DNA from: Flavobacteriales bacterium
GTDB taxonomy: Bacteria > Bacteroidota > Bacteroidia > JANQJC01
Direction: 5' to 3'
Length of the DNA: 63,554 nt
Assembly (NCBI GenBank): GCA_028281825.1
Contig: JANQJC010000015.1
Span: 1 to 63,554 of the forward strand
Below the pieces are notes generated by a model. The model was not told the origin of the DNA and did not search any database. It saw only the letters and a list, made by a program, of their open reading frames with translations. Below are positions 13,816-51,182 of this stretch, piece by piece (position 1 is the first letter of the stretch; each line of letters opens with the position of its first letter). A program made the position numbers and the translations under genes.

Positions 13816-16800
13816 ATGACCAAAAAGACACTCAGCCTCATTTTAATCACTCTCACTTATATCACATCGGCTTTTGCCCAATACGATGCCTTAAACCCGC
13901 CAAATACATTTCGTAGCAAGGATAATCCATATTACTGGAAAAACAAGCTGCCTCGTGATGGTTATTGGCAGCAAGATGTTCACTATAAAATACAAGCGAG
14001 TATTGATGAGAATACATTGGTAATTGATGGCCAGGAAAACCTTACCTACTGGAACAATTCACCCGATACACTTTATTACGTTTATTTCCATCTGTATCAG
14101 AATGCATTTCAACCAGGTTCTTATTTAGATGACCTTCAAAAAAATAATGGAGTAAAGCCCTACTACGGTTATTATGAAAAAAACAAGCTTGGCACTGTAA
14201 TAGAAGCCATTGACCAAAAGGGAAAACCTGTCAATGGTATAATTGACAATACTGTTCTAAAAATACTACTGAACGAACCTTTACTACCAAATCAATCAAC
14301 TGAATTCAATATAAAATTCAAAACTTTTTTTGACTCGGGCAGCACCCGACGCAGGATGAAGGTTTTTATGGCCTATGGCTACAAACATTTTGATGGTGTG
14401 CATTGGTATCCAAGAATTGCGGTATACGACCACAAATTTGGTTGGAATACCAACCAACACTTAAGCCGTGAATTCTATGGCGACTTCGGCACTTACGATG
14501 TAGAGTTAACCTTTGCGAATAATTACATAGTTGACGCCACAGGTAATATGGTAAACCGCGATGAAGTGCTACCGAAAGACCTGAGGAAGAAGTTGGATAT
14601 TAAAAACTTTAAGGACAAGCCCTGGGGTGAGAAGCCATCTGTGATAGTGCCCTATGACAGTACACTCAAAAAGACTTGGGTATTCCATGCTGAAAATGTG
14701 CATGATTTTGCTTTTACAGCTGATCCAACCTACCGTATTGGCGAAGCTGAATGGAACGGCATAAAGTGCATAGCCTTAGCACAAGAACCACATGCTTCAA
14801 AATGGCAAAATGCTGCTGATTATACGGCAGAAATTATCAAGACTTATTCAGAAAATGTAGGGATGTATGCCTATCATAAAATGATAGTGGCAGATGCGAA
14901 AGACGGAATGGAGTACCCTATGCTTACCTTAGATGGAGGGTCAGACCCTGGCTATCGCGGTCTTTTGTGTCACGAGGTTGGACATAACTGGTTTTTCGGG
15001 ATGGTAGGAACTAATGAAACTTATCGCGCTGCCATGGATGAAGGCTTTACCCAATGGCTAACTGCTTTGGCATTGGAAAAAATTGATGGAGATACCATGG
15101 TTGACAACCCTGCCAAATCGGCCTATGTGAGAAGATACAAAAGACCGAGACTTGCTTGGGATTCTCGCGTATATAACGGATATCTATATGGTGCAACTAC
15201 TGGTGATGAGAGTACTTTAAATACACATTCTGATGGCTATAATGGAGCCTTGCGCCACGGTGGCGGATACAGAAATGTATATTACAAAACTGCTACTATG
15301 CTCAAAAACCTGGAGTATGTATTAGGTGAGGAGCTATTCTTCAAAGCTATGCAGAATTACTTTAACCAATGGAAAATTGCACATCCTTACTTTGAAGATT
15401 TTAGAGCTTCGGTAATTAATCATACCAAGGTTGACCTTAATTGGTTTTTTGACCAATGGTGGGAAACCAGTAAAACCATTGATTATGCTGTCAAGTCAGT
15501 TAAAAAAGGGGAAGGTGAAGATGAATATATCATCACTTTTAAGCGCAAAGGCCGGATGCAGATGCCTATTGACTTCAGAGTTACTTCAAAAGACGAATTG
15601 ACTTATGATTTCCATGTTCCCAATACCTGGTTTGTAAAAAACACCGATGCCATTGTATTACCAAAATGGTTTGGTTGGGATAAAGTAGGTATTACTTACG
15701 AAGCGACTGTTAAGATACCTGGTGGAATCAAAAATGTAGAAATAGACCCATCGCATAGATTAGCTGATGCTTATATGCCAGATAATGCCAAGAAAATGCC
15801 AATCAGGTATTCTTTTGATTCAAAAATTTCTAACGCTCCCGATTGGAAACATTATGAACTCAACAGCCGACCTGACATATGGTACAATAGTTACGATGGA
15901 CTGAAAATAGGCCTGCACCTAAATGGAAACTATCTCAATCATCATCACATATTCAGTGCTAATGTATGGCTTAATACAGGTTTCTTACAGGCCTCCTACG
16001 ACTCTACTGTTCAAGAGAATGAGTTTGATAAAATATCATTCTTGCTTAGATATAGGCACAATCTCGACAAGCTGACAAAAGACGCTTATTATTCCCTTGA
16101 GGCAAAAAGTCTGGATGGCCTTTGGGGTTTCAAGGCTGGTGTTGAGAAAACAGATTTATCAGGAAATAACATTTTTAAGTTGGGCTTCAAGTCAATGTAT
16201 AGACAGGACAGCACAGACTTGGTCTACCTCCTTAATCCCAATGAATGGGGTGTTGACCAGTGGAATAATATCATCAGTGCAGGTTATGAGCATAAATATG
16301 ACTACCAAAAAGGAGATGGTAATATCCAATTAGACCTTCGTTCGTCTACCATTGGTAGCGACTATGACTTTGCACAACTCTCACTTACCGTTATTAATAA
16401 CAATCGCCTTGATAAGTTCTTATTTAAAACAAGGGTCTTTGCCCAAATAGGAACTGGCAGTAACATCCCAAGAGAGTCAGCTTTGATGTTGGCTTCTGCA
16501 AACAATGAAGAATTGATGGATAATAAATTCACTCGCTCAGAAGGTATTCTACCAAGCGATTGGGCTGGGCACAATGAGGTAACCAATAACTTCCATCATG
16601 GTGGAGGGCTTAATTTAAGAGGTTACTCTGGTTATCTGGCTCCATACCTAAATAGCGATGGTGAAATTGTATTAACATACGCTGGGAACAGTGGCGCAGC
16701 TGTTAACGCTGAATTGGAATTTGATGAATACTTCCGAACAAGGTCTAAGTTCTTAGGAAAGTACTTTAAGTTGAATACTTATTTATTTGGTGATATCGGC

Positions 16801-17022
16801 ATCATCAACTCTAGTTTACCAAGTGAAAAACTGACTTTTGCAGATTTTAGAGCTGATGCGGGTGCTGGTGTAGCACTTACCATCAAAAAATGGGGACCAC
16901 TTGAAACCGCAAAGCCACTTACAATCAGGTTTGATATGCCATTTTTCTTAAACCAGACTCCGGCACTTGATCCTGACTACTTTAAATTCCGTTGGGTATT
17001 GGGTGTTAGTAGGGCTTTTTAG
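13816..17022 (+). CDS. M1-family metallopeptidase fused to an Omp85-like outer-membrane barrel
   Basis: The protein has 1068 residues. A signal peptide (cleavage after AFA near residue 21) precedes an M1 peptidase domain with the exopeptidase motif DGMEYP at 363-368 and the zinc site HEVGH at 386-390, with E409 as third ligand. From about residue 655 the sequence changes to alternating polar/aromatic beta-strands. At 927-937 there is HHGGGLNLRGY, like the conserved loop-6 (V/L)RG(F/Y) motif of Omp85 proteins, 134 residues before the end (similar to BamA). The last strands (ADAGAGVALTIKKWGPL, TIRFDMPFF, FRWVLGVSRAF) match the BamA C-terminal pattern and the chain ends in Phe. This implies an outer-membrane-anchored peptidase. 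The peptidase call is firm; the barrel family is by eye. Confidence 0.85.
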   Translation: MTKKTLSLILITLTYITSAFAQYDALNPPNTFRSKDNPYYWKNKLPRDGYWQQDVHYKIQASIDENTLVIDGQENLTYWNNSPDTLYYVYFHLYQNAFQPGSYLDDLQKNNGVKPYYGYYEKNKLGTVIEAIDQKGKPVNGIIDNTVLKILLNEPLLPNQSTEFNIKFKTFFDSGSTRRRMKVFMAYGYKHFDGVHWYPRIAVYDHKFGWNTNQHLSREFYGDFGTYDVELTFANNYIVDATGNMVNRDEVLPKDLRKKLDIKNFKDKPWGEKPSVIVPYDSTLKKTWVFHAENVHDFAFTADPTYRIGEAEWNGIKCIALAQEPHASKWQNAADYTAEIIKTYSENVGMYAYHKMIVADAKDGMEYPMLTLDGGSDPGYRGLLCHEVGHNWFFGMVGTNETYRAAMDEGFTQWLTALALEKIDGDTMVDNPAKSAYVRRYKRPRLAWDSRVYNGYLYGATTGDESTLNTHSDGYNGALRHGGGYRNVYYKTATMLKNLEYVLGEELFFKAMQNYFNQWKIAHPYFEDFRASVINHTKVDLNWFFDQWWETSKTIDYAVKSVKKGEGEDEYIITFKRKGRMQMPIDFRVTSKDELTYDFHVPNTWFVKNTDAIVLPKWFGWDKVGITYEATVKIPGGIKNVEIDPSHRLADAYMPDNAKKMPIRYSFDSKISNAPDWKHYELNSRPDIWYNSYDGLKIGLHLNGNYLNHHHIFSANVWLNTGFLQASYDSTVQENEFDKISFLLRYRHNLDKLTKDAYYSLEAKSLDGLWGFKAGVEKTDLSGNNIFKLGFKSMYRQDSTDLVYLLNPNEWGVDQWNNIISAGYEHKYDYQKGDGNIQLDLRSSTIGSDYDFAQLSLTVINNNRLDKFLFKTRVFAQIGTGSNIPRESALMLASANNEELMDNKFTRSEGILPSDWAGHNEVTNNFHHGGGLNLRGYSGYLAPYLNSDGEIVLTYAGNSGAAVNAELEFDEYFRTRSKFLGKYFKLNTYLFGDIGIINSSLPSEKLTFADFRADAGAGVALTIKKWGPLETAKPLTIRFDMPFFLNQTPALDPDYFKFRWVLGVSRAF

Positions 17023-32015: not shown

Positions 32016-35000
32016 CTACTTAATCAGTATCTTCTCACTACTGTACACAGAGTTAGCACTAATATTAACCAAATAGGCTCCACTGCTTAAGCCCTCAAGA
32101 TTAATTACATTATTACCTAACGACAAATCTACACCTTGCTTTGAGTATACCTCTTTGCCAAGCATGTCATATATCTTCAAAACTGCATCTTTCTCAGCAG
32201 AGCCATCGCTGGTTATAATCAACTTGTTATCCCAATAGTAAGTATATATGCTGCTGGTAGCTTCCTCTATATCAGTAATGGTTGGATTGAAGTAAAGGAA
32301 GAACCTATCAAAGGCATCAGCAACTGTAACACTCGTTGTGTAAGAAGTATCTGCAGTAATATTGTGCATCACCCCTATATAGTCATCATATAGATAAACC
32401 TGGTTGCTATTAAGGTTCTCGTGTCTGTCCAGCTTAAACACACCAGTACCATCAGTATCAAGCCTCAGGTGCAGTGGTACTACTCTTCCTATAGTATTAT
32501 CAGGGAATGCTGCAATCATAAATTCATCTGATTGTTTTACAATGGATAGTGACATTTCATTTAATGCACTCACCTTGTATGCATCGTATTGTTCACTTCT
32601 GGTCTCAGTAGCATCAGGCAAGAAACCAACCAACACCTCATTGTATAGGTTGTCCTTCTCAAAGCTTATCCACACTTTCAAATCTTGCTGTGGGCTTGCC
32701 AACCTAAAGAATTGACTGTTATTTGTTCTACGCATACTATTAGTGAAAGTAAGCGTATTGGTGGAGGAAGCTTCTACATAAAAACCCTGACATGAACCAA
32801 TAAAGCCATTAGGGGTGTGCCCACCACCACCTGCCGAACCAGTACCGTTCCATACTGCAAAATCGGCAGCTGAATACCCATTACCGCCAGACAGGTCATC
32901 ATCCCAAAAATACAATGAGCTTGTAATGATACCTGTATTACCACCCGTTAAGCTATTAGCTGATATAGCCGATGGGTATGGATTACCAACCAAATTAAAT
33001 TTACTACCCTGATTAAGTGAATTCATTGGATGAGTAGACGTGACCACATTAGTAGTTTTGTTTCCGTTATTTGGCGCTCCGTAGAATGATGAATTACCGC
33101 CATTGGTTGAGATATATCCCTTACCCACTGCCATATTACCTGAATATGAAGACCAACCTGGGTCCGGACCCGGGTTATCGTCGGTAGTAGAGTGAGTACC
33201 ATTAGCTGATATATACTGATATACGTTACCACCTGGAGTAACAGCTGTTGCCACTGGTGTTGACCACATGTTATATATACTTGGGCTACTTGAGCCATTT
33301 CTCTTAACCGTGACATAGCCTGAAACACTTCCACCAGCGCCCGTTGTGCCAGAACCATGCATCAGTGACGCACCATTTTCCAAGATTAGCCCGTTATTGG
33401 TAACCAGGGTTGCACCTGTGGCAACACTTACGACTCCACTAACACTCAAGCCACCTGTTAGCGTGGAATTTCCAGAGGTTTGTATACTAAGTGTACCATC
33501 ACCTAATACCGAATTACCATTAGCTGCAATATCACCATTGACTGAAAGTGTCAAACCACTATTGATAGTTAATGTAGCACCAGAAGCTAAATTGATATCC
33601 TTACAGGTAGCTCCATTGGCAGTAACAACAGGGTCGTTAGTCACATCTGGAATGGTGATATCATCAGATGAAGTAGGTAGTTGGCTTGGTGTCCAGTTTT
33701 GGCTACTAAACCAGTTTGTGCTTACTGAACCATTCCAAGTCAAGCCCTGGTCTATAACAGTCAACACCTCAGAATTTGAGGTGACACTAGGGGTACACGT
33801 ACCAGATATTATACACCTATATGAATACCCGTCCATCGCAAGAGTAGCTCCAGTAATAGTCAGGGTGGCTGTTGATACGCCAGAATACACACTTGTATTA
33901 CCAAGATTGGTAAAACCACTACCGGTATTCACCTGCCACTGATATGTCAATCCCGCTCCCGTAGCCGTCACAGCAAAGCTTGTATCAAATCCTGCACCTA
34001 CTGAAGCTGCTACGGGCTGCACAGTAATAGTCGGCTGCCCGTTTACTGTTAAGGTAGCGGAAGAAGATGTGGCTGTTGGATTACAATCACCAGTTACAAC
34101 ACATTGATAGATATATCCATCCATACCAGCTGTTGCTCCCGTAATGGTCAACTCATCTGTTAATGCTCCAGAATATACCCCAGTATTGGTAACATTCACA
34201 AATCCACTCCCAGTATTTACTTGCCACTGGTATGTCGGGTTAGTGCCTGATGCTTCAATACTGAATGTTGTATTAGCACTCTCACAAATTGTTGCGTCAC
34301 TTGGGTCAGTATCCACTGTTGGAGGTGTACATGTTGTAATTTCATCTGCACCAATATCTGGTGTTGAAACATCTCTTGTATCACCATCAATGTCAACAGT
34401 GATACCGCCAGCAGGTGTTCCATATCCATCAATTCCATTACCTGCGGCGTGCAGGTCAACATTAGATGTAAATACTGGGTCTGCATTCACTGAATTAACA
34501 TCCATGCCGCTTGCTGATTGCAAAGCAGACAAACTGGTTGCAGCTCCACCCCAGTGAGCAAAATAGCTACTACCAGGTGCATAGAAATTGTTGTAATCAG
34601 AACTTGTTATAGCACTGGAAATACTATTGTAGAAACAATACCCACCATTGCTGGATTCAAAAATGTTGTTTCTAAGATAGATGCCTGCATTTGATGGACC
34701 ATTCAAGTAAAAAGCCCTTGAAGTAGTGGCATTACCGCTTGTAGACAGCCAACTATTAAAATAAATGTACTTGTGTGTGGTACCATTCATATATATACCG
34801 TTGGTTGTTCCTGTGCCATTGCCAGCACCAGAAGAAGACTCAGATTGACTGCTCCCTACAGCCACCATATTATTGGCTATTGTACCAAAATAGGAACTAC
34901 TTCCTTCACATGATAAAAGTTCAATACCCGTGACATTACTCCCGCGGTTTAGGTATATCTCATTTCTTTGTATGGAGAGGGCATCATCCAAATGTAAAGC

Positions 35001-37481
35001 ACAGATACCTTGCGTTCCACCAGGGTTGTATGAAGCCGCATTTATGATACGATTGTCATCAATGGTAGTACCATCAATATAGCGTAAATACATACCATAA
35101 CGATAACACTCAAACAAGTTATTTGTTATAGATATGTTACTCTTCATATTGCTTAAAGTACCCTCATACCATATACCAGCCGAGCCATTTAAGAAATGGT
35201 TATCGTCAAATGAATTATCGGAGTTGCCGGCGTCATCTTCCGCAGCCCATACCAGTGCAGCATTCTGAGCAGAAGAACCTGTCCTACCCTCAAATATATT
35301 ATTGATGAATTTATTGTTTGAGGCGTTACCGTGCATTTCAACAACGTGGGTGTATGTATTATTGCCCGTCCTTTTGATAGTCATATCCCTGAAGGTGATG
35401 TAATCTGCACCATTCAGGTCGATTGCATAGTTATCACCGATGGTATTACTTCCTGGATATGTAAGTGTAACACTTGTATTATCTCCTGTTAAGGATTTAA
35501 ACACAATATCGTCTGATGATGAAGCTCCGGTAATCTCACTAATGCTGAATTGCTCGGTATAGGTTCCAGCATGAACATTAACAGTGATAGCTCCATCAAT
35601 ACCTGGCCCATGGAAATAATCGGGAGCGTCAGTACGAGTGCCGTTCACCATGTCTGATACCACGTCAGAAAAACTATGATAATTATTACAGTTGGCAGGA
35701 CTTCCTGGATTAATAGTATAAGTACCTGCAAAAGAACCAGTACACCAGGTTGAGACTCCCGTTAATGCTACCAAACGCTCAGAAGCACCAGTACTGTTAT
35801 GTGTGATATTACCGCTATGCGAGCCAGCAGAAGCTGGATTGTAACGCACCTCAATTGTTGTAGTAGATACAGTACCCAGAGTTGGAACCAAGGTAACCAA
35901 TGAGCCAAATACACCTATTCCCTGTTGCCTGATTTGCCAATTTGTAGGTGGAACAATTAAAATCGGTGTGGTTAAGTTTTCACCTTCCACCGTATAAGTT
36001 TGGGTTGCTGAAGGTGTGCCCACCGAAGTGACAAACTGGTTTAGTGAAGACGGATTCACTATTATATTAGGTGATGTACCCGCACCATTCTCGTGAGCAC
36101 CAATAGTAGTTGGATTTTGCCTACTATTGGCATCAACATCTTGTGTTAAACCTAAATTAGTTCCATCACCTGTTAAATCATTAGCAGTTGCTTTCCAACC
36201 AACACCTGACACAAACAACATTTCAGGGTCAATATTTACTGAATTACTTTCTCCCGTAGCACCTGTCCACGAGCTAAAATCAGTATAGTTAGAACTATAT
36301 CTACCTCTAAATGGATTACCAGTATTTTCTGTATAATAACAGTTATAGTCTATCGCACCTACCCCACTAGCATTACCAATATACACAGTTTGATTAGCAC
36401 TGCTGCTAGTGCTGCTTCCTGCATGGCAGAAAACATTATTTTGGATTTTGGTATCATCAGTAGATGTAAATGAACGATAGCAGTATGATGATGAACTAGT
36501 ACCTCCTGAGACGTAAATAGTGTTAGAGTATATATTCCAATACTCAGATGTACTTGTTTGGTCAATACCATAAGCGGTTCCTGAACCATTTTCAAGCTGA
36601 ATGGAATTATTGCCACATGTCGCATTGTTGCCTGAAGTTGATGATGAGCCATTCAAATAAACACCATAAGCTATTTCACCTGAACCAGTGGTATAAACAT
36701 AATTTTGTGTTACCTGGCTTTGCCCGTCGCAGTTGTTCAAATAAACACCGTAAAAAGTATTGTTGGTAATACTTCTGTGTATTGAGTTTCCATTAATGTT
36801 TGGTGCTCCCACATCGCGTGCGTACACCCCTCCTGCGGCATTATCAATAAACTCACACCCCTGCACGTTAAAACCACCTGGTTGTGATGAACTCATATCA
36901 AAATAAATACCATAAGAACCATTTGAGATTTTAGTATTTTGAAGGGTAAAATTGTCACAATCATTACCTGAAGAAGATTCACTGGCATAAATAACAGAAG
37001 CAGTAAAAGTGCTTGATGTGGAACTCGAACCGTTAAGTATGCAATCTTGAATAGTTACATTATCAGAATTATCCCGAACCTCAATTGCACTATAGGATGA
37101 AGCCCCAGTGTAACTTATTGTCAACTCATTGAAAGTAACGTAGCTGCACCCTTGAAGGATAATGACATCTGCAAAAGATGAACTACTAATAGTAACCAGA
37201 CTAGCATCCAAATTCTCAGACTGAAAAACTATAGGATTGGAGGATGTACCAGTTGCTGTTATGGTAACGTTACCAGCTTGTACGCCATCCCTTATGTTAA
37301 AAGTAACCCCACCAGAACCAACTCCGACAGAGTTTAGTGCAGTAACAGCATCAGCAAAGGTTGAATAATCAGGTGCTGTGCCACCAATTGTTTTAGTGCC
37401 CGTAAGTTGTGCAAAACCACTTATACTAAAGGCAGTAAGCACAAATAGTATAGTGAAAATTTTGAAGTAGAATTTCCTCAT
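32016..37481 (-). CDS. Giant secreted beta-helix/Ig-like protein with T9SS sorting domain
   Basis: The protein has 1821 residues and a signal peptide ending FAQ. Residues of about 30-480 and 580-1045 are two right-handed parallel beta-helix regions with many NNxI and S/T/N-rich turns. Between them is a small beta-sandwich (about 480-580). Two very similar Ig-like domains follow (about 1050-1145 and 1147-1240), both containing YQWQVNTGSGF. Next comes a repetitive region starting WNGSVSTNWFSSQNW, then a low-complexity glycine/serine stretch. The last 80 residues (IYDMLGKEVYSKQG ... SSEKILIK) form a type A T9SS C-terminal signal, so it should be exported by T9SS and attached to the surface. A polysaccharide-binding, lyase-like or adhesive role is possible; no catalytic residues were recognised. 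Confidence 0.9.
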   Translation of the reverse strand: MRKFYFKIFTILFVLTAFSISGFAQLTGTKTIGGTAPDYSTFADAVTALNSVGVGSGGVTFNIRDGVQAGNVTITATGTSSNPIVFQSENLDASLVTISSSSFADVIILQGCSYVTFNELTISYTGASSYSAIEVRDNSDNVTIQDCILNGSSSTSSTFTASVIYASESSSGNDCDNFTLQNTKISNGSYGIYFDMSSSQPGGFNVQGCEFIDNAAGGVYARDVGAPNINGNSIHRSITNNTFYGVYLNNCDGQSQVTQNYVYTTGSGEIAYGVYLNGSSSTSGNNATCGNNSIQLENGSGTAYGIDQTSTSEYWNIYSNTIYVSGGTSSSSYCYRSFTSTDDTKIQNNVFCHAGSSTSSSANQTVYIGNASGVGAIDYNCYYTENTGNPFRGRYSSNYTDFSSWTGATGESNSVNIDPEMLFVSGVGWKATANDLTGDGTNLGLTQDVDANSRQNPTTIGAHENGAGTSPNIIVNPSSLNQFVTSVGTPSATQTYTVEGENLTTPILIVPPTNWQIRQQGIGVFGSLVTLVPTLGTVSTTTIEVRYNPASAGSHSGNITHNSTGASERLVALTGVSTWCTGSFAGTYTINPGSPANCNNYHSFSDVVSDMVNGTRTDAPDYFHGPGIDGAITVNVHAGTYTEQFSISEITGASSSDDIVFKSLTGDNTSVTLTYPGSNTIGDNYAIDLNGADYITFRDMTIKRTGNNTYTHVVEMHGNASNNKFINNIFEGRTGSSAQNAALVWAAEDDAGNSDNSFDDNHFLNGSAGIWYEGTLSNMKSNISITNNLFECYRYGMYLRYIDGTTIDDNRIINAASYNPGGTQGICALHLDDALSIQRNEIYLNRGSNVTGIELLSCEGSSSYFGTIANNMVAVGSSQSESSSGAGNGTGTTNGIYMNGTTHKYIYFNSWLSTSGNATTSRAFYLNGPSNAGIYLRNNIFESSNGGYCFYNSISSAITSSDYNNFYAPGSSYFAHWGGAATSLSALQSASGMDVNSVNADPVFTSNVDLHAAGNGIDGYGTPAGGITVDIDGDTRDVSTPDIGADEITTCTPPTVDTDPSDATICESANTTFSIEASGTNPTYQWQVNTGSGFVNVTNTGVYSGALTDELTITGATAGMDGYIYQCVVTGDCNPTATSSSATLTVNGQPTITVQPVAASVGAGFDTSFAVTATGAGLTYQWQVNTGSGFTNLGNTSVYSGVSTATLTITGATLAMDGYSYRCIISGTCTPSVTSNSEVLTVIDQGLTWNGSVSTNWFSSQNWTPSQLPTSSDDITIPDVTNDPVVTANGATCKDINLASGATLTINSGLTLSVNGDIAANGNSVLGDGTLSIQTSGNSTLTGGLSVSGVVSVATGATLVTNNGLILENGASLMHGSGTTGAGGSVSGYVTVKRNGSSSPSIYNMWSTPVATAVTPGGNVYQYISANGTHSTTDDNPGPDPGWSSYSGNMAVGKGYISTNGGNSSFYGAPNNGNKTTNVVTSTHPMNSLNQGSKFNLVGNPYPSAISANSLTGGNTGIITSSLYFWDDDLSGGNGYSAADFAVWNGTGSAGGGGHTPNGFIGSCQGFYVEASSTNTLTFTNSMRRTNNSQFFRLASPQQDLKVWISFEKDNLYNEVLVGFLPDATETRSEQYDAYKVSALNEMSLSIVKQSDEFMIAAFPDNTIGRVVPLHLRLDTDGTGVFKLDRHENLNSNQVYLYDDYIGVMHNITADTSYTTSVTVADAFDRFFLYFNPTITDIEEATSSIYTYYWDNKLIITSDGSAEKDAVLKIYDMLGKEVYSKQGVDLSLGNNVINLEGLSSGAYLVNISANSVYSSEKILIK

Positions 37482-41920: not shown

Positions 41921-43051
41921 ATGGTATTCGGGATAACCCACAGGGACAAGCATTCCAAAGCAAGGGCAGGTACAATATCGACAGATCATGGGGTTATTGA
42001 GACCCCAATTTTTATGCCTGTAGGTACGGCAGGCACGGTAAAAGCTGTTCATCACCACGAACTTGAAGACGACATCAAAACCCAAATAATATTGGGAAAC
42101 ACTTATCATCTTTACCTGCGTCCAGGAATGGAAATTATTGAAAAAGCTGGAGGGCTTCATCAGTTCATCAATTGGCAAAAACCCATGCTAACCGATAGCG
42201 GTGGCTATCAAGTTTACTCTTTGGCCGACCAAAGAAAATTGACAGAGGAAGGGGCAAAATTTCAATCGCATATAGATGGTAGCAGGCACTTCTTTACTCC
42301 TGAAAACATCATGGATATCCAACGAACCATTGGCGCTGATATAATCATGGCCTTTGATGAGTGTACACCCTACCCTTGTGAGTACGACTACGCCAAAAAG
42401 TCAATGGAGATGACTCATCGCTGGCTAAAAAGGTGCATTAACCGTTTTAATGAGACCGAACCAAAATACGGTCATGAGCAAACACTCTTTCCAATTGTGC
42501 AGGGAAGTGTTTATGGTGACTTAAGAAAACAATCAGCGGAGTTTGTAGCTGCACAGGATTGTAAAGGCAATGCTATTGGCGGCTTGTCAGTAGGAGAGCC
42601 TGCCGAAGAAATGTACGAAATGTGTGAGTTGGTTTGTGATATTCTACCTGAGGACAAACCAAGATACCTAATGGGTGTGGGCACTCCCGCCAATTTACTG
42701 GAGAATATTGCCTTGGGAGTGGACATGTTTGACTGTGTAATGCCAACGCGCAATGGAAGGAATGGTATGCTATTTACTTCAGAAGGCATTATCAATATCC
42801 GTAATAAGAAGTGGGAAGCTGATTTTAGCCCGATTGACCCTGATGGTACATCGTTTGCGGATACCAAATTCAGTAAATCATATTTGAGGCATTTGTTCGT
42901 TTCAAATGAGGTTTTGGGCTTGCAAATTGCAAGTATCCACAACCTTGCTTTTTATTTGGAATTGATGAGACAAGCCAGAGAACATGTTATTGCAGGTGAT
43001 TTCGCCGAGTGGAAAGAAATAACAGTAAAGAAAGTAGAAAACAGGTTATAA
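41921..43051 (+). CDS. tgt: Queuine tRNA-ribosyltransferase (TGT) lacking the zinc cysteines
   Basis: This 376-residue TIM-barrel enzyme exchanges guanine 34 for queuine precursors in tRNAs with GUN anticodons. Asp271 in DCVMPTRNGRNG is the nucleophile and the substrate-site Asp146 lies in MAFDECTPYP. The strictly known zinc motif CxCxxC is missing: the aligned segment is GTSFAD at 309-314, between IDPD and KFSKSYLRHL. The downstream IHN motif, which carries the histidine ligand, remains. The loss looks genuine as flanking family sequence is perfect, and may be a lineage feature. It is followed by an LptF/G gene 7 bases later. Confidence 0.95.
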   Translation: MVFGITHRDKHSKARAGTISTDHGVIETPIFMPVGTAGTVKAVHHHELEDDIKTQIILGNTYHLYLRPGMEIIEKAGGLHQFINWQKPMLTDSGGYQVYSLADQRKLTEEGAKFQSHIDGSRHFFTPENIMDIQRTIGADIIMAFDECTPYPCEYDYAKKSMEMTHRWLKRCINRFNETEPKYGHEQTLFPIVQGSVYGDLRKQSAEFVAAQDCKGNAIGGLSVGEPAEEMYEMCELVCDILPEDKPRYLMGVGTPANLLENIALGVDMFDCVMPTRNGRNGMLFTSEGIINIRNKKWEADFSPIDPDGTSFADTKFSKSYLRHLFVSNEVLGLQIASIHNLAFYLELMRQAREHVIAGDFAEWKEITVKKVENRL

Positions 43052-43058
43052 TACTGCT

Positions 43059-44135
43059 TTGAGAATACTCGATAAATATATCATCAAGAACTTTCTGGGG
43101 ACTTTCTTTTACACCATCTCCCTTATCCTGGTTATCGTTATTGTGTTTGATATCTCTGAAAAGATTGATGACTTTATTGAGAAGCAAGCCCCAATGCAGG
43201 CTATTTTCTTCGAGTATTACATCTACTTTATTCCCTATTTCGCCAACCTGTTTAGCCCATTATTTATTTTCATTGCGGTTATCTTCTTTACTTCAAGATT
43301 AGCATCCCGTACAGAGATTACAGCCATTTTGAGCAGTGGGGTAAGTTTTAAAAGGTTAATGGTTCCTTACATGATATCAGCAACCATACTAGCTAGTTTA
43401 TCTACCTTGCTAAATAATTTCATTATCCCACCTGCCAATGCCAAAAGGCTGCAATTTGAGTGGACATACATCAACAACCCCTTTAGGTATGCCGGTAAAA
43501 ACGTTCATGCCCAAACATCCCCAGGGGAATTCATTTATTTTGAAAGTTTCAACAACCAGCGAGGCATTGCATACAAGTTTTCTTACGAAAGGTTTGAAGA
43601 AAATGAGCTTAAATTTAAGTTGATGGCTGACCATATCAAATGGGACTCTCTTGAGCAGAAATGGATAGTGAGAAATTACCATATCCGAACCATTGACGGG
43701 ATGAAAGAGACGGTAATCACGGGTGCTGAGATGGATACAACCTTTAGAAACTTTGACCCTGCTGATTACAGCAAACGGGTTACATTGATAGAAACACTCA
43801 ATTATTTTGAACTCAACAACTACATTGAGGAACAAAAATCCAAAGGCTCCCAAATTGAGTATTACCTAGTGGAGAAATATAAACGTTTTTCTTTACCCTT
43901 TGCAACTTTTATTCTCACTATTATCGGGGTGAGTTTTTCAAGCCGAAAAGTGAGAGGTGGGATTGGCCTACACATTGCCATTGGTACGCTCATCAGTTTC
44001 TCTTACATTCTGTTTATGCAAGTAGCTAATACTTATGCAGCTAGTGGCAATGCACCAGTATTATTGGCTGTCTGGACGCCCAACATTATATTCGGGATAT
44101 TAAGCCTAATAGTTCTCAGAATGGCTCCTAAATAA
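43059..44135 (+). CDS. LptF/LptG-family permease (YjgP/YjgQ)
   Basis: The protein has 358 residues with an N-terminal helix pair (RILDKYIIKNFLGTFFYTIS), a helical region to about 125, a periplasmic beta-rich domain (about 130-270) and three C-terminal helices from about 285. This is the LptF/G layout of the lipopolysaccharide export ATPase complex LptB2FG. Which of the two it is cannot be decided here. It starts with TTG, is seven bases after tgt, and its end overlaps the aroA end by eight bases on the opposite strand. Confidence 0.88.
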   Translation: MRILDKYIIKNFLGTFFYTISLILVIVIVFDISEKIDDFIEKQAPMQAIFFEYYIYFIPYFANLFSPLFIFIAVIFFTSRLASRTEITAILSSGVSFKRLMVPYMISATILASLSTLLNNFIIPPANAKRLQFEWTYINNPFRYAGKNVHAQTSPGEFIYFESFNNQRGIAYKFSYERFEENELKFKLMADHIKWDSLEQKWIVRNYHIRTIDGMKETVITGAEMDTTFRNFDPADYSKRVTLIETLNYFELNNYIEEQKSKGSQIEYYLVEKYKRFSLPFATFILTIIGVSFSSRKVRGGIGLHIAIGTLISFSYILFMQVANTYAASGNAPVLLAVWTPNIIFGILSLIVLRMAPK

Positions 44136-45330
44136 GCTTCTCTAGCTCCTCCCAAAAATTAGGATAAGACTTGTTGACTACTTCAGCATCTTCAATCTTT
44201 ATCTCCCCACACAGCAATGCTAAAGGTGCAAAAGCCATAGCCATCCTATGGTCTTGATATGTTTTGATGGTTTGCACAGATGGCTGAAATTTCCCACTCA
44301 GAGAATAGGTTTCACCTTCATTGACCAGTTCTTTGCCAAATTTCTTGAGTTCAATCTTCAGGGCAGCAATCCTGTCTGTTTCCTTGATTCTAAGTGTTTG
44401 CAGACCAGTAAAAGTGGCTTCAATGTCAAGTGCTGCACACAGTACTATTATGGTTTGTGCCAAGTCTGGATTAGCAAGAAAGTCCAAATTCGAAGGCTTT
44501 TTCTCAATTGACTTCTTTTTCAATAGAAGCCCATCAGCTTCCTCAATAGTTTCTACACCCAAACTTTTCATCCAATGATGAACAATAGTATCACCCTGTA
44601 TAGATGATAACTTCAAGCCATGTAAAAAGATATCACTGTTATCACTCAAAGCAGCAATGGCATACCAATAAGAGGCAGCACTCCAATCTGGCTCAACGAT
44701 TTGTATTGGTGGAGATGCTTTTCTCTCTGAATTAACTTGAATTGTTGAATTTGATGTTCGGTTCACCTTAAAACCTAACCCCTTCATCAAGGAAATAGTC
44801 ATCTCCAAGTAAGGCTCAGAAACTAAGCCATTAGTTATTTCCACCTTCAAACCATAAGGTAATGAAGGGCCTATCATAAGCAAGGCTGAGATATACTGAC
44901 TGCTGGTATTCCCGGGAATTGACACCTTACTTCCACTCAGTTTCGCTGCATTTATTCTTGCAGGAGGATAACCATCATTCTCAAGATAATTTATGTCTGC
45001 CCCTAGCTTCCTGAGAGCGTCCACCAAGGAACCAATGGGCCTTTCCTTCATTCTCTCAGAACCCGTCAATATCTTTGTTTCGCCTTTTGTCACATAATAA
45101 GCCAATAGAAAACGCATTGCTGTGCCTGCAGCACCAACGTCAATGGTTTCATCATTGCCTGATAGTGCTTTCTTCAAAAGCATGGTGTCTTCAGCTTCTG
45201 AGAGGTTTTCTATTGCAAAACCGCCATACAAAGCCTGAAGTATAAGCAAACGGTTACTGATGCTTTTTGACGCGGGTAATTGAACACTACCAGAAATAGA
45301 CCTATCCTTAAAGCTGATAGTTTTGAGCAT
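44128..45330 (-). CDS. aroA: 3-phosphoshikimate 1-carboxyvinyltransferase
   Basis: This 400-residue EPSP synthase transfers the enolpyruvyl group of PEP to shikimate 3-phosphate. Motifs are LPASKSISNRLLIL, DVGAAGTAMRFLLAYY, GSERMKERPIGSLVDAL, VEPDWSAASYWY, IKETDRIAAL and YQDHRMAMAFAPLAL. The length is slightly short of the usual 430. It is the last gene of an aroC - DAHP synthase/chorismate mutase - aroB - aroA operon and directly adjoins aroB. Eight bases overlap with the LptF/G gene on the other strand. Confidence 0.96.
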   Translation of the reverse strand: MLKTISFKDRSISGSVQLPASKSISNRLLILQALYGGFAIENLSEAEDTMLLKKALSGNDETIDVGAAGTAMRFLLAYYVTKGETKILTGSERMKERPIGSLVDALRKLGADINYLENDGYPPARINAAKLSGSKVSIPGNTSSQYISALLMIGPSLPYGLKVEITNGLVSEPYLEMTISLMKGLGFKVNRTSNSTIQVNSERKASPPIQIVEPDWSAASYWYAIAALSDNSDIFLHGLKLSSIQGDTIVHHWMKSLGVETIEEADGLLLKKKSIEKKPSNLDFLANPDLAQTIIVLCAALDIEATFTGLQTLRIKETDRIAALKIELKKFGKELVNEGETYSLSGKFQPSVQTIKTYQDHRMAMAFAPLALLCGEIKIEDAEVVNKSYPNFWEELEKLI

Positions 45331-48851: not shown

Positions 48852-51182
48852 ATGAATAGGATTTTGCTTCTAGTATTTCTATTGGCGTCGTCTGCAATTG
48901 GCTCAGCCCAATCTTCATTTGACGTAAAGCATTACGATATCTCAGTAGATACCATTGACTTTGCAAACAAAGAAATCACTGCCCATGTAAGTGTTCGTAT
49001 CCAAGCCATTGGCGGACAAACTAGTGGAATAGAACTAAGCTTGCTTCAATTTCAAGTAGACTCCATTAAGCAAGGCACCCAAACCCTCGCCTTCAATTAC
49101 AATGATACCATTTTGGATATCAGTCTGGCTCAGCCATTGAGCAATGGTGACAGTACTGAAATTACTATTTATTACAACGGCCACCCCCAAGAGGACAACT
49201 CAGGCTTTGGTGGCTTTTATTTTCAAGGTAATACTTATGCTTTCAATATTGGTGTTGGCTTTGAGGCTAATCCCCACAACTACGGTAGAGTGTGGTTTCC
49301 ATGCGTAGATAACTTCACTGACAGGGCAACATACAGTTATCATATTAGGGCACTAGATACCTACAAAGCTTTCTGCAATGGTGAACTAACCAGCGTTGAT
49401 GACAATGGTGATGGAACCTTCACCTATAACTGGTATATGTCCTACTCCATCCCCAGCTACCTGGCTTCAATGGCGGTTGCACCCTTCTATAGCATCAATA
49501 GAAACTATCACAACATTCCTGTAAGCATTGCGGTACTTCCATCCGACTCAAACAATACCATTAACACCTTTCAAAATTTGGAGAATTGTGTTGGCACTTT
49601 CCTTAATAATTATGGCCCATATAAATGGAACAAGATTGGTTATGTGGCTGTGCCATTCAACGCAGGTGCAATGGAGCATTCTACCAGCATACACATCGGC
49701 AAAGCATACATCAATGGAGCGCTAACCTATGAAACACTTTGGGCTCATGAGTTGGCACACCAATGGTGGGGCGATTTGGTTACTTGTGAGCGCCAAGAAG
49801 AAATGTGGCTCAACGAAGGTTTTGCTGCATACAGTGAGGCCATCTTTCTGGAAGGCAGGTATGGAAGAACCCGATACAAGAATTACGTGCGAAGTAATCA
49901 TAGAAAAGTGCTTCAATTTGCCCATATAATAGATGACGGATACAGACCACTGAATAATATCCCCCACGAATACACTTACAGCACTACCGTGTATGACAAG
50001 GGTGCCGACATTGCCCATACCTTAAGAGGCTTTATGGGTGATAGCGCTTTCTTCAATGGGTGTAAACACTACTTTGATGTAATGGCCTACCAGGATGCAA
50101 GTAGCGAAGATTTAAGAGATGCCCTCGCAACTTCATCGGGCATTGATATGACTCGCTTCTTTGAAGATTGGATTTTTACAGGTGGCTTTCCTCACTTTTC
50201 TGTTGATTCCTTTAATGTGGTAAATGCTTCAGGCGGTACTTTTGACGTAACAATTCATACCAAGCAAAAGCAAAAAGGCAACAGCCACATCTATAAAATG
50301 CCCCTGCAATTTACCTTTAGGAACAGTACCAATGAAGCTACTGAAACTTTTACTATTGATGCTGCTACCAACACTTTTCAAACCAATTTGAGTTTCAGTC
50401 CAAGCATGGTTACCATAGACAAAGAGGAGTTAATTAGCGATGCAACAACGGACTATGAATTGAAAGTTTTTGGAACTGGTAATTATGACTTTAAGGAAAC
50501 CAATGCTAGCATCAATGTAATAACTGATGGAAATGATTCATCATTGGTGAGAATCGAGCACAACTGGGTAGCACCCGATGATTTTATTAATCCACCCGCC
50601 AACATAAGCCTTTCCGATTATCACTATTATACAGTAGATGGCATTTTCTCTCCTGGCTTTAGGGCTTCTGTTACTTTTAATTATAATGGCATGAATAATC
50701 AAAATGCTGGCTACCTGGATAATGACCTGATAACTGGCCTTGAGGATGGTCTATTATTATTTTATCGACCTAGTGCAGGTCATGAATGGCAACAAGTGAA
50801 TGCCACGGTCAATTACATGGGAAGCCACACAGATAGACGAGGAAAATTTGAAGTAGATACACTCCAAAAAGGGCAATATGCCTTTGGGTACGATGCCACT
50901 GCTTCTTCAATAAAGAATAAAAAGGTAAAAAAAAACGATAGACTAGTCGTATTCCCCAATCCATCAAGTGGTTCTTGCACTATTCAGCTTGATTTAAACA
51001 GTTTGCAAGAGGCGTACGTGAAAATTTATAGTCCTGATGGAAAGTTGGTTCATACCCAACAAGTAAAGGCAACAGAAAAACAATTCATCTGGAACCATTC
51101 AAGCTTTTCGGCTGGCACTTATTCCATTGCCTTAGAAGGAAAATCAGGTTTAATAGCCAGCACCCAGGTAATAATCAAGTAA
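48852..51182 (+). CDS. Secreted M1-family aminopeptidase with T9SS sorting domain
   Basis: The protein has 776 residues. A signal peptide (cleavage after GSA near residue 19) is followed by the M1 N-terminal beta domain and the catalytic domain: exopeptidase motif GAMEH (compare GAMEN), zinc site HELAH at 299-303 with E322 in WLNEGF. The C-terminal 75 residues (VVFPNPSSGSCTIQL ... IYSPDGKLVHTQQV ... STQVIIK) are a type A T9SS signal, so the enzyme should be secreted to the surface or medium. It probably trims peptides for nutrition. It is unrelated in architecture to the M1-barrel protein at 13816. Confidence 0.93.
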   Translation: MNRILLLVFLLASSAIGSAQSSFDVKHYDISVDTIDFANKEITAHVSVRIQAIGGQTSGIELSLLQFQVDSIKQGTQTLAFNYNDTILDISLAQPLSNGDSTEITIYYNGHPQEDNSGFGGFYFQGNTYAFNIGVGFEANPHNYGRVWFPCVDNFTDRATYSYHIRALDTYKAFCNGELTSVDDNGDGTFTYNWYMSYSIPSYLASMAVAPFYSINRNYHNIPVSIAVLPSDSNNTINTFQNLENCVGTFLNNYGPYKWNKIGYVAVPFNAGAMEHSTSIHIGKAYINGALTYETLWAHELAHQWWGDLVTCERQEEMWLNEGFAAYSEAIFLEGRYGRTRYKNYVRSNHRKVLQFAHIIDDGYRPLNNIPHEYTYSTTVYDKGADIAHTLRGFMGDSAFFNGCKHYFDVMAYQDASSEDLRDALATSSGIDMTRFFEDWIFTGGFPHFSVDSFNVVNASGGTFDVTIHTKQKQKGNSHIYKMPLQFTFRNSTNEATETFTIDAATNTFQTNLSFSPSMVTIDKEELISDATTDYELKVFGTGNYDFKETNASINVITDGNDSSLVRIEHNWVAPDDFINPPANISLSDYHYYTVDGIFSPGFRASVTFNYNGMNNQNAGYLDNDLITGLEDGLLLFYRPSAGHEWQQVNATVNYMGSHTDRRGKFEVDTLQKGQYAFGYDATASSIKNKKVKKNDRLVVFPNPSSGSCTIQLDLNSLQEAYVKIYSPDGKLVHTQQVKATEKQFIWNHSSFSAGTYSIALEGKSGLIASTQVIIK

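Follow-up and report, generated by a model that had tools for sequence, protein, structure and literature searches.

Proteins of the Omp85 superfamily assemble outer membranes or maintain them. Within the 63,554-nucleotide contig of a Flavobacteriales bacterium analyzed here (JANQJC010000015.1, hereafter the window), one open-reading frame joins a barrel of this type to a zinc peptidase and, as a second enzyme-Omp85 case beside PlpD, raises the question of what the barrel does for the enzyme attached to it. The predicted protein begins with a Q-rule signal peptide, continues with a complete M1 (gluzincin) peptidase and ends in a 16-stranded barrel; its features are listed in Table 1. Full-length orthologues with ~ 38–63% identity recur in dozens of independent genomes, so the fusion is not an assembly artefact. 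Judged from its sequence, the signal peptide is of the Bacteroidetes Q-rule signal-peptidase-I type and not a lipoprotein box, with an AxxQ-type pattern (a small residue, then Gln) at the predicted cleavage site in 55 of 61 relatives; the Q-rule places Gln at position +1 of Bacteroidetes signal-peptidase-I substrates (PMC10653852). A search for a T9SS C-terminal sorting domain gave no Por_Secre_tail match in the fusion, whose C-terminus is strand 16 of the modelled barrel.

Table 1 Features of the M1-Omp85 fusion, with positions in the window
Feature	Residues	Position	Strand	Basis or remark
M1-Omp85 fusion ORF	1068 aa	13816-17022	+	ATG start; full-length orthologues
Sec signal peptide	1-21	13816-13878	+	Predicted cleavage between AFA and Q22; helix 2-19 in AlphaFold model
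M1 module	~48-650	13957-15765	+	PF01433; Foldseek
HEVGH zinc motif	386-390	14971-14985	+	Catalytic H, E, H in 33/33 relatives
Third zinc ligand	E409	15040-15042	+	33/33 relatives; spacing HEXXH-x18-E
Tyr aligned with the catalytic Tyr of E. coli PepN	Y489	15280-15282	+	phmmer; 33/33
16-stranded Omp85-type barrel	680-1066	15853-17013	+	AlphaFold, Foldseek, hhalign
Loop 6 (L6), between strands 11 and 12	884-959 (76 residues)	16465-16692	+	AlphaFold
L6 tip motif HHGGGLNLRGY (R935 = BamA R661)	927-937	16594-16626	+	Conservation
Strand 12 counterpart of BamA E717	E966	16711-16713	+	32/33 fusions, 27/27 standalone barrels
Strand 13 counterpart of BamA D740	D993	16792-16794	+	33/33 fusions, 27/27 standalone barrels

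As a sequence-only reading of this locus had proposed on the strength of HEVGH and E409, the fusion carries a complete M1 peptidase with a predicted intact active site. PF01433 matched at 8.3e-12 (45.6 bits against a cut-off of 27.7), and Foldseek with the M1 module returned IRAP, ERAP1, and ERAP2 at 4e-21 to 2e-18 as well as an aminopeptidase N from Toxoplasma. No variation was observed at H386, E387, H390, E409, E366, or Y489 across 33 relatives. Like the M1 aminopeptidases PepN, ERAP, and IRAP, the module is built from an N-terminal beta saddle, a catalytic domain, and a C-terminal beta-sandwich (residues 557–643) and has both the HEXXH-x18-E spacing and the catalytic Tyr, but the helical domain IV of the larger M1 enzymes is absent and the barrel comes after the beta-sandwich instead. 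A further difference from these enzymes lies in the GxMEN exopeptidase motif, which reads DGMEY in the fusion, with the Glu invariant among the 33 relatives and the Asn replaced, so that aminopeptidase specificity is not assured.

The C-terminal region was modelled with AlphaFold from a 33-row alignment, both as the barrel alone and within the full-length protein. Sixteen strands were obtained in each case (pLDDT 80 and pTM 0.77 for the barrel alone, pLDDT 81 and pTM 0.77 for the full-length fusion), with L6 and the C-terminus of the fusion modelled at low confidence (pLDDT ~ 45–65). The strand number anticipated by the sequence-only reading was thus recovered, the HHGGGLNLRGY stretch that it had taken for the loop-6 motif fell between strands 11 and 12, and the terminal Phe to which it had drawn attention is near-universal in the fusion family (RAF, RSF, RCF, RTF). 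The L6 motif is strongly conserved in the fusions: GGG and R935 occur in 33/33 and G936 in 32/33, while residue 937 is always Y or F, and LRGY at residues 934–937 follows the (V/L)RG(F/Y) pattern that marks L6 in the Omp85 superfamily. The L6 motif RGF of E. coli BamA touches two acidic residues, E717 of strand 12 and D740 of strand 13 (PMC3871556), with a salt bridge linking R661 to E717 (PMC12505904). All three residues of this R/E/D contact set have counterparts here, the Arg being present in every one of the 33 fusions (as R935) and in all 27 standalone barrels described below.

Assignment of the barrel to a superfamily by direct sequence comparison was not productive, as Pfam detected Omp85 in none of the 33 fusion barrels, and Pfam, NCBIfam, and PDB sequence searches with the barrel returned nothing useful; matches to Nanovirus_C8 and similar entries (E 0.02–0.3) were dismissed as chance. 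One standalone relative (L155) does score against PF01103, at E 0.0019 and 18.2 bits, under the curated cut-off of 24. Structural comparison was more informative, in that the best 50 matches listed by Foldseek against the PDB are all BamA or TamA (E 3e-10 to 2e-8), at modest TM-scores (0.37–0.49 by query and up to 0.59 by target). We also compared a profile of the barrel family by hhalign with Omp85 proteins from the same genomes, using FadL, PorP/SprF, and DUF5686 as controls. The Omp85 comparisons scored 42–48 (E 2.7e-4 to 4.7e-5), whereas 100 column shuffles gave 17.2 ± 3.0 with a maximum of 26.4 and the reversed profile gave 17.3, indicating that the likeness is not due to chance. The three controls scored 20–28 against the fusion barrel. 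A profile of the standalone barrels, however, reached 34 (E 0.0013) against PorP/SprF, which is above background, while the fusion and joint profiles did not rise above it, so membership could not be decided on profile scores alone.

Taken with the strand count, the place of L6, the PDB folds, and the R935/E966/D993 set, these scores agree that the predicted barrel belongs to the Omp85 superfamily, and the assignment made in the sequence-only reading is upheld. The absence of Pfam or PDB sequence matches to the fusion barrels and the weak TM-scores are what one would expect of a 16-stranded outer-membrane barrel from some other family, serving as a mere anchor and bearing an RGY by chance, but we regard that explanation as very improbable, because the L6 position, the charged residues on strands 12 and 13, the profiles, and the fold search all point to Omp85 and the FadL, PorP, and DUF5686 controls lie near background against the fusion barrel. 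The barrel resembles BamA and TamA, its best PDB folds, in its 16 strands, in the placement of L6 (between strands 11 and 12), in the (V/L)RG(F/Y) motif, and in the R-E-D contacts, and departs from them in being attached to an enzyme, in lying below Pfam recognition at the sequence level, and in lacking POTRA domains. No POTRA match was found in the fusion, and in the model the all-beta M1 sandwich occupies the region ahead of the barrel. Classes of Omp85 proteins without POTRA are already accepted (PMC4104836).

Fusions were present in 27 of 40 sampled genomes of the same class, the source genome included, some copies being cut by contig ends. A scan with one genome per species yielded 38 fusion loci, most of them full-length and mostly labelled Bacteroidetes or Bacteroidia; the Saccharibacteria and KSB1 labels among them may reflect mis-binned contigs. 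In a tree of M1 domains, the fusions group together, with low support for the deep branch. On this sequence evidence, the M1-Omp85 fusion is a POTRA-less Omp85 variant that is real and widespread in one bacterial class. BrkB and nadC often lie upstream of the fusion and DUF2147 sometimes downstream, an arrangement read as inherited housekeeping context since it is found in a minority of loci, and the gene neighborhood of the fusion gave no functional clue.

In a phylum-wide sample, the barrel occurs mostly alone. The 27 standalone open-reading frames fetched are 400–465 aa long, and those inspected have an N-terminal leader of their own and no M1 gene within ~ 1.5 kb on either side. These standalone barrels (L144-L167, L169-L171) carry NLRGY or similar motifs, come mostly from one family of the phylum, and often adjoin a NUDIX-like gene. 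Their sequences suggest undescribed Omp85 proteins of the "noNterm" type that fall below Pfam detection. No plasmid record carries the barrel. A 614-aa protein from another genome (L028; genome G004, contig C11) has the same barrel after an N-terminus of ~ 190 aa in which no relation to M1 could be detected. The idea that L028 is an M1 protein with its catalytic core deleted was rejected, as its N-terminus, compared by profile, scored lower than shuffles do on average. The existence of L028 and of the standalone forms indicates that the barrel is a module retained in evolution whether or not the peptidase is attached.

Among known proteins, the closest in plan is PlpD, the patatin-Omp85 protein of P. 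aeruginosa, which likewise combines in a single chain an N-terminal hydrolase and, at the C-terminus, an Omp85 barrel of 16 strands. The enzyme of the fusion differs in being a zinc peptidase and not a patatin lipase, the two domains being unrelated, and no POTRA stands between enzyme and barrel. The survey of Heinz and Lithgow from 2014 described ten Omp85/TpsB architectures, none with M1 (PMC4104836). Its "noNterm" and "Metallo" classes are likewise POTRA-less barrels, and the latter has a metal-dependent hydrolase domain, but that domain is PF00149 and not M1, and the term peptidase is absent from the survey text (PMC4104836); "noNterm" proteins have no enzyme, and it is the standalone barrels that they resemble. 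No description of an M1-Omp85 protein was found in the literature searched, which agrees with the earlier suggestion that the architecture is undescribed, most subscription papers being outside the scope of that search and absence from it not amounting to proof. Given that Pfam does not see the barrel, annotation has probably overlooked it and labelled the protein simply as an aminopeptidase.

The long loops of outer-membrane barrels face outward. In the barrel model, the loops after odd strands total ~ 154 residues and the turns after even strands ~ 46, with the short turns on the side of the termini and the long loops opposite, which would place both barrel termini and the M1 module in the periplasm. 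A position of the M1 module on the inner side of the outer membrane is therefore more probable than exposure at the cell surface. This runs against the sequence-only reading, in which PlpD served as the parallel for a surface-anchored protease that its own Omp85 barrel delivers or tethers. The parallel is sound for a hydrolase and barrel on one chain and fails for surface placement, as a re-examination of PlpD in 2024 found the enzyme domain to be exclusively periplasmic (PMC11116518).

Elsewhere in the window, a 776-aa protein (48852-51182, + strand) is a second M1 peptidase, with PF01433 at 1e-32, Peptidase_M1_N, and Por_Secre_tail at 3e-9, and from these domains is probably a surface or secreted enzyme; because of its T9SS tail, the organism appears to have another route for M1 export to the outside. 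An 1821-aa protein (32016-37481, − strand), which has a T9SS sorting tail in addition to immunoglobulin-like domains, is probably also a large surface or secreted protein.

Transport of the M1 domain to the outside by its own Omp85 barrel, giving a surface-tethered or released peptidase as in the type Vd model, would match the original model of PlpD in its N-terminal enzyme and C-terminal barrel, and surface peptidases are useful to Bacteroidota. We nevertheless think it unlikely, given that PlpD itself is periplasmic, that a folded globular enzyme of ~ 600 residues would have to pass through a plugged barrel, that an M1 peptidase with a T9SS tail is already at the disposal of the organism, and that the barrel persists without M1, which is not predicted for a dedicated delivery barrel. 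Survival of the barrel without M1 also disfavors a role for it solely as an anchor or solely as a delivery pore.

We consider it likely that the protein is instead a POTRA-less Omp85 protein in which an M1 zinc peptidase replaces the POTRA domains, faces the periplasm, and is tethered to the outer membrane. Such a protein would be exported by Sec and its barrel inserted by BAM; with both barrel ends facing the periplasm, the M1 module would stay folded beneath the barrel and would most likely trim the free N-termini of peptides or of stalled envelope proteins beside the outer membrane. As the standalone barrels and L028 suggest, the barrel may keep a role of its own, be it in assembly or in lipid or local-membrane work of the kind known for other Omp85 proteins.

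A narrower form of this tethered-peptidase explanation, and one compatible with it, is that the fusion is a quality-control factor for outer-membrane proteins, in which the barrel is itself an insertase or works next to one and M1 trims or clears stalled substrates, much as BepA does beside BAM in E. coli. An Omp85 barrel with a conserved L6 latch, a peptidase located under it, and wide conservation across a phylum whose BAM is unusual are all consistent with such a role, but there is no POTRA for substrate binding, and the fusion does not figure among the subunits reported for the BAM complex of F. johnsoniae, so that we hold this form only tentatively. The fusion was also considered directly as a Bacteroidota BAM subunit and set aside, as the F. 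johnsoniae BAM paper, in which BamM is a surface lipoprotein, makes no mention of a peptidase.

The periplasm-facing, tethered peptidase would be a concrete candidate for a source of aminopeptidase pressure in the periplasm, in a phylum whose exported proteins are capped with pyroglutamate. Pyroglutamate stabilizes exported proteins, and N-terminal peptidases have been argued to be the threat, the enzymes named being dipeptidyl-peptidases in P. gingivalis and no M1 enzyme (PMC10653852); a tie between the fusion and the Q-rule is speculation. A broader proposal, to which we assign a low probability, is that M1-Omp85 proteins form a widespread unrecognized subfamily in which the tethered peptidase and a functional insertase-type barrel cooperate on outer-membrane proteins, for example in removing N-terminally unprotected envelope proteins. 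Such cooperation, if real, would connect M1-Omp85 with the selective pressure that lies behind the Q-rule of Bacteroidota.

A second M1 family of ~ 1000 aa with a barrel-like C-terminal region (L031/L183/L219) was found in all 23 of the same-class genomes tested, the member in the source genome lying on another contig (C82, ~ 42238-45280, − strand). Its C-terminal region showed no detectable relation to Omp85 when compared directly and is related to the barrels described here (hhalign 1e-5 to 3e-6; 2.5e-6 with the standalone barrels). This region also contains a conserved G..G.qDYlYD stretch.
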